DNA of 64,000 bases, from positions 248,001-312,000 of the forward strand of contig PMSM01000002.1 in the NCBI GenBank assembly GCA_003168335.1. The letters are read 5' to 3'. This DNA comes from Blastocatellia bacterium. GTDB lineage: Bacteria > Acidobacteriota > Blastocatellia > Pyrinomonadales > Pyrinomonadaceae. Both the position numbers and the translations under genes were made by a program. Positions 25,907-56,471 of the stretch are shown piece after piece; position 1 is the stretch's first letter, and the number at the start of each line of letters is the position of its first letter. Below the pieces are notes generated by a model. That model was not told the DNA's origin, ran no database searches, and was given only the letters and a program-made list of their open reading frames with translations.

Positions 25907-25972
25907 ATTCGTTTTGTCCGTTGGAATTACGCGGCGCAATATATCACGGAACGTGAGTACTGCGGAGATGAA

Positions 25973-26060
25973 GTCAGTACCACCCGCGTGAGCTGGTGGA
26001 GTAAGGACTCAACGCGCCGGTTGCCCCCAAGATCCACCTGCTAACGCAGGTGGTACTGAC
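25973..26060. repeat. REPIN-like inverted repeat between divergent genes
   Basis: Arms GTCAGTACCACC (from 25973) and GGTGGTACTGAC (to 26060) enclose a perfect inner hairpin, CCACCTGC-TAAC-GCAGGTGG. The right arm ends three bases before the methyltransferase ATG at 26064, so the element forms that gene's leader. Confidence 0.85.
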
Positions 26061-26063
26061 CTC

Positions 26064-27107
26064 ATGGCGCAAGATGCGCGTGCCACCGACTTATGCGATA
26101 GTTACAATCGCTTGAAAGAAAAACTGCTGCAATATCTCTCATGCCCATCGTGCGCCGGCGCGATTACTCTGGTGTCCGCTGAGCGCGAAGGTGAGGAAAT
26201 CATCGGTGGTCAACTAACGTGCGCTTCATGCACGCGCGCATGGCCCATCGTGCGCGGCGTTCCGCGCTTTGCTTCGATCGAAGAGGTCGAAGAGGACAAA
26301 GCCGCGACCGCCGCCGGCTTCGGCTGGCAATGGACCCACTTTACTCAGATTGATGAGAAGTATGAAGAGCAGTTTCTTGGTTGGATCGCTCCGGTCACGC
26401 GCGAGTTCTTCAAAGATAAGGCCGTGCTCGAAGGTGGTTGCGGCAAAGGACGTCATACGCTACTGACCGCACAGTGGGGTGCGCGTGATGTGATCGGAAT
26501 TGACTTGAGCGCAGCAGTTGAAACTGCGTTCACAGCGACTCGTCATCTTCCGAACGCTCACATCGTCCAGGCTGACATTTACAATTTGCCGTTCGCCCGC
26601 GCGTTTGATTACGCGTTTTCGGTCGGCGTGTTGCATCACTTACCCGATCCGCGCGGCGGGTTCAAGTCACTGGCATCGAAGGTCAAACCCGGTGGCCACA
26701 TTTCGGCCTGGGTCTATGGCGCCGAGAACAACGAATGGATCACGCGCTGGGTAAACCCTCTGCGCGAGCGTCTGACCTCGCGCATGAACCCGCGGGCGCT
26801 ATTACAGCTTTCAAAAGTCCCAACTGCGGTTGTGTTCGCGGCGACCAGGCTAATCTATGGTCCACTTAACGCTTCGGCCGGTGGCGCTAAGCTGGCGCGG
26901 CATCTTTTTTACAACGACTATCTAAACGCGATCGCCGGCTTTGGCTGGCGAGAACAACACACCATCGTCTTTGATCACCTGGTGGCGCCCACGGCGTTCT
27001 ACATTTCCCGCGAAGAATTTGCCGAGTGGTGGCCAGAGATAGACGCACAAGATGTGACCATTAGCTGGCACAATCGCAATAGTTGGCGCGGATTTGGACG
27101 GATCTGA
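26064..27107 (+). CDS. SAM-dependent methyltransferase with N-terminal zinc ribbon
   Basis: A 347-residue protein: a Trm112-like zinc ribbon at about residues 26-70 (CPSC ... CASC, ending WPIVRGVPRF) followed by a class I SAM-binding domain (VLEGGCGKGRHTLL, then VIGIDLS, and FSVGVLHHLPDPRGGF at the substrate side). This arrangement is common in methyltransferases acting on small molecules, lipids or sugars linked to surface-polysaccharide genes; the target here is unknown. The start codon abuts a repeat element and no ribosome binding site is visible. Confidence 0.85.
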   Translation: MAQDARATDLCDSYNRLKEKLLQYLSCPSCAGAITLVSAEREGEEIIGGQLTCASCTRAWPIVRGVPRFASIEEVEEDKAATAAGFGWQWTHFTQIDEKYEEQFLGWIAPVTREFFKDKAVLEGGCGKGRHTLLTAQWGARDVIGIDLSAAVETAFTATRHLPNAHIVQADIYNLPFARAFDYAFSVGVLHHLPDPRGGFKSLASKVKPGGHISAWVYGAENNEWITRWVNPLRERLTSRMNPRALLQLSKVPTAVVFAATRLIYGPLNASAGGAKLARHLFYNDYLNAIAGFGWREQHTIVFDHLVAPTAFYISREEFAEWWPEIDAQDVTISWHNRNSWRGFGRI

Positions 27108-28540: not shown

Positions 28541-28548
28541 AGTGGCAC

Positions 28549-28797
28549 AGACTTCAGGAAACTCTGATCAAGTACTTTCGACGCGTAGCGTCGGTATGAA
28601 TTTAGCCCGGCCTTTCAAGGCCGGGAAGGGGCAACGAGGTGTTCGCGTCGCGTAGCGACGCCTGAAACCAAGGGATTCAATCGTCGCTACGCGACGAGAA
28701 CAGAGACTAACCTGATCCCGGCGTTGAAACGCCGGGCTAAGTTCATGCGGACGCTACGCGTCCAAGACACTTAGTCAGAGGTTCCTTCAGTCTGTGA
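28549..28797. repeat. Large nested palindrome made of several REPIN families
   Basis: About 250 bp forms concentric inverted repeats: GGCACAGACTTCAGGAAACT pairs with AGGTTCCTTCAGTCTGTG on the outside, then CGACGCGTAGCGTC with GACGCTACGCGTC, then TTTAGCCCGGC with GCCGGGCTAA, and in the middle TCGCGTAGCGACG with CGTCGCTACGCGACG. It follows the pilT stop codon directly. The layers belong to different repeat families, as expected if one element inserted into another. Confidence 0.85.
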
Positions 28798-28810
28798 AGA
28801 CTGATACCCA

Positions 28811-28958
28811 TTTTCCATTTCTCATTTTTCATCTGCCATTGACGATTGAGGTTTAGAGTGCCGACTTTAGTCGGGTCTTTGTTGTTGCGAAAAGCCCAAC
28901 TGAAGTTGGTACTCTAAACACCGTCCTTGATGTGAAATGAAAAATGAGAAATGGAAAA
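28811..28958. repeat. Nested REPIN pair
   Basis: Outer arms TTTTCCATTTCTCATTTTTC and GAAAAATGAGAAATGGAAAA enclose a second complete element, GTTTAGAGTGCCGACTTTAG (28851) to GTTGGTACTCTAAAC (28919), with its own CCGACTTTAGTCGG hairpin. The two families occur separately elsewhere, so this is one element within another. Confidence 0.88.
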
Positions 28959-28982
28959 TGGATTCTGAATCCTGAACACGAA

Positions 28983-30794: not shown

Positions 30795-30951
30795 TTTTCC
30801 ATTTCAAGTTTGCCATTGTTCATTTGCTGGATTTATTTCGCGTCGCTTCGTGGATCGTTCGCTTGACTGAAGAGTGAAGAACGATCCATGAAATCACCCG
30901 AACGGACAACAAAGAATAGCAAATGAAAGATGTCAAATGACAAATGGAAAA
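30795..30951. repeat. Nested REPIN pair
   Basis: Outer TTTTCCATTT (30795) and AAATGGAAAA (to 30951), as at 28811, enclose a GTGGATCGTTCGC/GAACGATCCATG inner element of the family also found at 44050-44235 and 50880-50944. It lies between the DUF1844 and PhnP-like genes. Confidence 0.82.
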
Positions 30952-38890: not shown

Positions 38891-39019
38891 TTGGAGTGCG
38901 CCTTTGGATGTCCGACAAACTTCAGTTTGTCGACGCTCTTAGCTTCTGAACTTGAAACGACAAACTGAAGTTTGTCGGACATTGCGCCGTCCCCGCCTAG
39001 CTCTGCCGGCGCACTCCAA
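38891..39019. repeat. Nested REPIN pair
   Basis: Outer TTGGAGTGCG (38891) and GCACTCCAA (to 39019) enclose an inner element (38909-38982) with CGACAAACTTCAGTTTGTCG on the left and CGACAAACTGAAGTTTGTCG on the right, each a perfect hairpin. It fills the gap between the GNAT and lysozyme genes. Confidence 0.88.
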
Positions 39020-39830: not shown

Positions 39831-40065
39831 AGCGCCAAAGGCGCGAAATGCAAAAGCCTGGGGCAACGCCCCAGGTTAGATGTAAAGAGAAGATTCGCTT
39901 AGCGCTGAAGGCGCGAAATAGATCGGCATCCCATTAGTACTTTGGCTTAGCGGGGAACCAGATTATCGACTCTCTTATTTCGCTCCTTCAGAGCTGGGTT
40001 GACTCAGGTGGCGTGATCCTGGGCCGTTGGCCCAGGCTTTTGCATTTCGCACCTTCGGCGCTTAG
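39831..40065. repeat. Long nested inverted repeat upstream of RNase J
   Basis: About 235 bp: GCGCCAAAGGCGCGAAATGC and AAAGCCTGGGGCAACGCCCC on the left pair with GGGCCGTTGGCCCAGGC, TTTTGCATTTCGC and CCTTCGGCGC on the right. An inner pair, CTGAAGGCGCGAAATAGATC with TATTTCGCTCCTTCAG, lies between. Whether it belongs to the leader of the downstream RNase J message depends on the promoter position; TATACT at 40127-40132 is a possible -10 box below it. Confidence 0.82.
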
Positions 40066-44049: not shown

Positions 44050-44235
44050 TTTTCCATTTCTCATTTGACTCGATTCATTTGTCATTTGTGGGCCTCTGGT
44101 TCGTGTTCGTTCGTGTGATTTCGTGGATCGTTCTTCATGTGTCGGGCAAGCAAGCGATCCACGAAGTAACACGAAGCATCACGAAATGAGATCCACGAAA
44201 TGCCAAATGACCGTTGACAAATGAAGAATGGAAAA
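44050..44235. repeat. Nested REPIN pair upstream of recJ
   Basis: Outer TTTTCCATTTCTCATTTG (44050) and CAAATG...AATGGAAAA (to 44235) enclose GTGATTTCGTGGATCGTTC and GATCCACGAAGTAACACGAA, i.e. the same two families as at 30795. It fills the gap between uppP and recJ. Confidence 0.85.
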
Positions 44236-50856: not shown

Positions 50857-50879
50857 GAAATAGCCTGCCCAGGTAGAAG

Positions 50880-50944
50880 GATCCACGAAAGTGCACGAAG
50901 AGGAAGTAGTAATGTTCGCGCGAGTTGGTGTGATTTCGTGGATC
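50880..50944. repeat. REPIN-like inverted repeat downstream of trpA
   Basis: GATCCACGAAAGTGCACGAA (50880) pairs with GGTGTGATTTCGTGGATC (to 50944). Same family as the inner elements at 30795 and 44050. Confidence 0.82.
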
Positions 50945-51156
50945 GTTCGTGTCGGGCGGAGAGTAAGCACGAAACAGTTCGCGATAGTTGCAACAGTCAT
51001 TAACTACTTCTAGTTTGATAAGTTGTTTGCTGATTAAAAGGTGCTCGACGAGGGTAACATCTTAGAGTATTCTTACGCGTCATTTTACGAGCTATGACGC
51101 GCCTCACCTTCGGGTTGCGCAGAGAGGGCTGCCGAGGCGGGAGTCGCTTGGTTTCA

Positions 51157-56403: not shown

Positions 56404-56471
56404 AGTGGCACAGACTTCAGTCTGTGAGTTCGACCTCTGATCGATATGCACAGACTAAAGTCTGTGCCACT
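56404..56471. repeat. REPIN-like inverted repeat (AGTGGCACAGAC family)
   Basis: AGTGGCACAGACTTCAGTCT and AGACTAAAGTCTGTGCCACT (to 56471), with a CACAGACTTCAGTCTGTG hairpin. It ends five bases before the prs ATG. Same family as 59905-59970. Confidence 0.9.

Follow-up and report, generated by a model that had tools for sequence, protein, structure and literature searches.

A REP hairpin split on its symmetry axis by an IS5-type miniature element with probable IS200/IS605-type cargo in a soil acidobacterium

The 250-bp palindrome that lies between pilT and mazG (genes named from their translations) is best read as a nest of three generations: a REP hairpin cut on its axis by an IS5-type miniature element, which in turn carries the ends of an IS200/IS605-type element. 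The probability of this reading is estimated at about 0.85. The palindrome occupies positions 28546-28796 of the window, which is the whole 64,000-nucleotide stretch of DNA that was analyzed, and shares the pilT-mazG interval with a second palindrome at 28808-28961. Its arms of 81 nt are 83% complementary and contain further inverted repeats, and in a fold computation the single strand forms one long stem (-100 kcal/mol, z = -15.5). A palindrome of concentric inverted repeats 3' of pilT had been described in an earlier sequence-only reading; it is real and its layers had been read correctly. The REP hairpin is outermost, the 229-bp IS5-ended miniature element lies in the middle and the IS200/IS605-type end hairpins are innermost. 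The components are as follows.

28541..28556, + strand: left half of the REP, AGTGGCACAGAC followed by TTCA (28553-28556, first copy of the target duplication)
28557..28785, + strand: miniature element of 229 bp, bounded by terminal inverted repeats of IS5 type, GGAAACTCTGATCAAG ... CTTAGTCAGAGGTTCC
28576..28767, + strand: cargo, comprising hairpins from the left and right ends of an IS200/IS605-type element that lacks tnpA
28786..28796, + strand: TTCA (28786-28789, second copy of the target duplication) and the right half of the REP, GTCTGTG
56404..56471, + strand: intact REPIN belonging to the family that is split at 28541-28796, serving as a paralogous empty site

Insertion of the miniature element on the REP axis

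The outer layer at 28541-28796 is the REP hairpin GTGGCACAGAC-TTCA-GTCTGTG, and the point at which the 229-bp element splits it is exactly its symmetry axis, with the 4 bp TTCA duplicated. Joining the flanks CACAGAC-TTCA and TTCA-GTCTGTG, with the duplication counted once, gives AGTGGCACAGACTTCAGTCTGTG, which stands intact at 56404-56426. A search of the element's own genome (5.16 Mb in 14 contigs) with the 250-bp palindrome returned four near-identical copies, two remoter full-length copies, one partial copy and shorter matches to the core only. Among named records the PilT protein is most similar to those of Acidobacteriota, the closest bearing the labels gp4 or Pyrinomonadaceae, and on this basis the genome is regarded as related to Pyrinomonadaceae. 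Relative to the element at 28557-28785, four further copies are 98-99% identical and two are 85-89% identical. When eight copies from the genome were aligned, the shared part ran from GGAA to TTCC and ended at one point, outside which different REP halves were found; TTCA, TGAA, TTTA or TCAA was repeated on both sides in most copies. Further copies split GTCCGACAAAC REPs and are flanked by duplicated TGAA or TTTA. One copy (L113) has unlike repeats, TGAA and TTTA, and halves derived from two REPINs, as expected from recombination between copies. Five copies of the middle and inner layers are 97-99% identical and each lies in a different REP, which shows that the two layers move as one unit.

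For the 250-bp palindrome, the 4-bp duplications and the many independent sites thus establish the proposal that one element had inserted precisely between the halves of a hairpin. The three layers are also found apart: the outer REP is intact at 56404, the core occurs without the middle layer, and the middle layer occurs with other contents. The duplications expected at inner boundaries were found in part, as TTCA at the 250-bp palindrome, with none visible at the REPIN at 28851-28919 in the neighboring palindrome. The flanks are also compatible with a duplication of 2 bp, in which case the element would be one base longer at either end; the match of the element ends to IS5 favors 4 bp.

Cargo, element ends and transposase

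The 229-bp middle layer has ends of IS5 type (GGAA..TCTGA.CAAG). ISKpn26, a member of the IS5 family, has the left inverted repeat GGAAGGTGCGAACAAGTTCCTGA and duplicates TTAA (PMC10569121), and by our own count the element ends (GGAAGCTCTGAACAAGTTGCTGA) agree with this repeat at 19 of 23 positions. An IS5-family transposase gene was found behind the same kind of end in a relative, G014 (NF033581, 352 bits, cut-off 140); its product also matches a Pfam DDE domain, and the end itself is located at a REP axis. The G014 contig stops inside the apparent second end of this copy, so that one end is visible and an intact autonomous element was not seen. The genome under study contains no relative of the G014 transposase at E 1e-20, and the copies are therefore either orphans or have a partner in unassembled sequence. 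Its own DDE transposases were considered as partners and rejected, as they have no matching ends. Three IS5 relatives on plasmids were examined, and readable ends were present in one, from a Cupriavidus plasmid, with a TTAA duplication.

The core is about 190 bp long and contains no gene. Its left part can be aligned to the upstream region of a disrupted Y1 tnpA (G000:C13:438980), with which it has end hairpins in common, and the cargo is accordingly read as joined IS200/IS605-type ends. As the core has no gene and the disrupted tnpA fragment scores 47 bits against a cut-off of 55, the cargo is termed an IS200/IS605-type derivative rather than a member. A further two hairpin sets surround Y1 genes scoring above the IS200/IS605 cut-off. 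IS5-type ends also enclose several unrelated hairpin sets, with contents ranging from almost nothing to about 350 bp. A similar composite of frame and core is present in the relative G004, and the combination therefore occurs outside this genome as well. Because the core sits inside and copies of it without the outer ends exist (L118-L125), it would appear that the cargo went into the miniature element rather than the miniature element into the cargo. Elsewhere in the window, a palindrome with AGCGCCAAAGGCGC ends (39831-40062) resembles the hairpins around an IS200/IS605-family tnpA at another locus of the genome (L198).

In the proposed order of events, the cargo would have entered the miniature element at an earlier stage by single-strand transposition, and an IS5-family transposase absent from the assembly would have moved the element in trans. 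This transposase would choose palindromic sites with an ACT-NN-AGT center, supplied by REP hairpins. The miniature element cuts such a hairpin on the symmetry axis with duplication of the central 4 bp, TNNA, and spreads together with its cargo into different REPs.

Target choice and the second palindrome

The generality of the axis rule was examined with end-pattern searches of the genome and of five relatives from the same family. Two sets of paired ends were assembled, 51 pairs with looser ends and then 41 pairs with a stricter required end; both comprise pattern hits and fetched loci, are non-exhaustive and may include a few chance matches. In the 41 paired elements (own and related genomes) the restored target is palindromic about the center of the duplication and at no other tested offset, with 5.02 of 8 positions paired at that center versus 1.6-2.8 at each other offset. 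At least 7 of 8 positions were paired at the duplication center in 16 of the 41 elements, and at other offsets in none. The looser set gave the same outcome, and among random TNNA sites 20 of 18,945 had at least 7 of 8 pairs. At most 4 of 8 positions were paired in 15 of the 41, so that a good part of the elements occupy sites where an extended palindrome is slight or absent. Duplications are imperfect in about half of the 41 pairs: the 4 bp are identical in 20, and 3 of 4 bases agree in 11 more.

Targeting of hairpin loops, suggested earlier as a rule of transposition, thus holds for one family of IS5-type elements and not for repeats in general. In four other families (B, C, D and E), REPIN flanks are for the most part non-palindromic, which excludes a general rule that REPINs insert in hairpin loops; most of these REPINs occur by themselves, and loop targeting is therefore a property of the IS5-type element.

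The comparison of orthologous intergenic regions that had been recommended was carried out, and the relatives proved too distant for it; neither the pilT-mazG interval nor a second nested locus yielded an empty orthologous site, other palindromes being present there, and paralogous empty sites were used instead. The region 3' of mazG in the window (28541-28982) and at L002, L003, L004, L005, L006, L007 and L010 carries largely unrelated palindromes, e.g., GGCACAAA, AAACAGTGAACAG and CCCTCTCCC, the seven relatives being those in which a palindrome was read downstream of mazG. This gene end looks as if a hairpin persists while its sequence is replaced. A four-layer nest was also observed, in the G000:C9:156891 region (L133), consisting of a TTGGAGTGCG REPIN, a GTCCGACAAAC REPIN, the IS5-type element and the IS200/IS605-type core.

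What the transposase recognizes can be explained in more than one way. It could read a short symmetric core such as ACTNNAGT, the hairpin or cruciform being irrelevant and REPs being struck as common intergenic carriers of that core; this is an alternative to recognition of structure and not to insertion itself, and its chances are only slightly below even. Several copies outside REPs retain a CT-NN-AG-like core, and both ISKpn26 and the IS5-family relative on the Cupriavidus plasmid use the symmetric 4-bp target TTAA, as sequence preference would predict. However, an extended REP stem is present at only 7 of 22 intergenic ACTNNAGT sites (464-kb sample, crude coding mask), and nearly all copies in the genome with a restored ACTNNAGT target have one, although these numbers are small and the REPs are those of the present day. 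The counts lean towards recognition of more than the ACTNNAGT core. That the transposase recognizes the extruded hairpin or cruciform itself, such that each inserted palindrome can become the next target, is nevertheless unlikely. If it were so, serial nesting would renew intergenic hairpins and would explain why one and the same gene end carries unrelated palindromes in the relatives. Growth of the nest with no transposition at all, through palindrome extension by template switching or recombination of neighboring repeats, is highly improbable. Hybrid flanks such as the TGAA/TTTA of L113 do show that element copies recombine, but the 4-bp duplications contradict such growth, and the terminal repeats, the near-identical copies at different sites and the matching transposase gene also argue against it. 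Insertion by an IS5-type transposase remains the preferred reading.

The second palindrome, 28808-28961, has outer arms of 32 nt that are 91% complementary and enclose a REPIN (GTTTAGAG...CTCTAAAC). The features relevant to it, and to the loci at which the same combination had been reported, are listed below.

28808..28839, + strand: left arm of the TTTTCCATTT palindrome
28851..28919, + strand: REPIN of GTTTAGAG type, made up of an inverted pair of REP hairpins and occupying the loop between the TTTTCCATTT arms, with no target duplication visible
28930..28961, + strand: right arm of the TTTTCCATTT palindrome
30795..30951, + strand: TTTTCCATTT palindrome containing a TTTCGTGGATCG palindrome
44050..44235, + strand: TTTTCCATTT palindrome containing a TTTCGTGGATCG palindrome
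38891..39019, + strand: TTGGAGTGCG REPIN containing a GTCCGACAAAC REPIN (about 38909-38980)

One complete element does lie inside another at 28811-28958, a GTTTAGAG REPIN within a TTTTCCATTT palindrome, and the GTTTAGAG REPIN is present at further loci apart from this nest, as had been claimed. The claimed recurrence of the combination did not stand: at 30795 and 44050 the TTTTCCATTT arms hold another inner palindrome, of GTGTGATTTCGTGGATCGTTC type, and at 38891 the pair is a GTCCGACAAAC REPIN in a TTGGAGTGCG REPIN. The TTTTCCATTT palindrome is paired with the GTGTGATTTCGTGGATCGTTC-type one in five of the six genuine TTTTCCATTT copies in the window and a 400-kb sample (repeat counts are based on this 464-kb total and on fetched loci), and the two may constitute one family.

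A REPIN probably entered the loop of an older palindrome to form the nest at 28811-28958, a plausible reading of one copy with no duplication. It is also possible, if somewhat doubtful, that at this locus the REPIN replaced the inner segment and no insertion nesting took place, the outer family normally holding another palindrome there. The TTTCGTGGATCG inner palindrome occupies five of six outer copies and the REPIN this one only, which favors replacement; against it, the REPIN sits symmetrically in the loop with 10-11 nt on each side, and the same REPIN stands alone at most of its other loci. With a single nested case that lacks a duplication, insertion and replacement are inseparable here.

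The arms of the palindromes at 30795-30951, 44050-44235 and 50876-50948, and of those at L179, L188, L195 and L197, are degenerate word repeats (TTTTCCATTTCTCATTT, TTCGTGTTCGTGTGATTTCGTGGATCG). At L328 (G115:C11), one arm of a TTTTCCATTT palindrome contains a DDE transposase gene that has TCCCAACGTTAGTT ends and is flanked by a CAGTACTG repeat.

Comparison with known systems

REPINs and their RAYTs (PMC3116915) are the comparison system for inverted REP pairs. The intact pair at 56404-56471 consists of two inverted REP hairpins, and at 28541-28796 itself a single, split REP is seen. As in that system, inverted REP pairs occur here and two REP families of this genome flank RAYTs that score above the curated cut-off; unlike it, the two split REP families had no RAYT found beside them in the genome. 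For the outer REP family, none of the 14 Y1 transposase genes detected in the genome has a REP copy next to it, and a RAYT could conceivably exist in another species. REP-like hairpins were also seen around two REP-associated tyrosine transposase genes and a Y1-like gene (L207, L209 and L211), and the GAGGTCAGTACC hairpin of the Y1-like gene (L211) resembles window positions 25968-26065.

The cargo resembles IS200/IS605-type elements in its paired end hairpins, which elsewhere in the genome flank a Y1 transposase gene, and differs from them in having no tnpA and in being carried in an IS5-type frame. The middle element and ISKpn26 agree in the terminal repeat at 19 of 23 positions, and both duplicate 4 bp; ISKpn26 duplicates TTAA, whereas the copies described here duplicate TTCA, TAAA, TTTA, TGAA or TCAA and have no transposase gene.

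A limited literature search found no earlier description of an IS5-type miniature element in this phylum, of its single-strand transposon-end cargo, or of so many independent sites that follow the rule. The many natural insertion sites offer a means of distinguishing a transposase that reads palindromic structure from one that reads sequence alone, and the stacked repeats yield an order of arrival.

That IS elements insert on REP axes has itself already been published. ISRm22 and ISPsy8 insert at the REP symmetry axis with short direct repeats (Tobes and Pareja 2006, PMC1525189), and hybrid direct repeats were ascribed in that paper to recombination between copies; the middle element is like them in all three respects. 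They differ from it in being full-length IS, from Sinorhizobium and Pseudomonas, whose repeats measure 6 bp and 3 bp, and neither a miniature element nor cargo from another transposon is described for them (PMC1525189). As similar targeting is known for full-size transposons, the case in this soil acidobacterium is of value chiefly as a good worked example and less as a new principle. It shows that remains of a single-strand-type transposon can be carried into REP hairpins by an IS5-type miniature element, which links three families that are usually studied separately.
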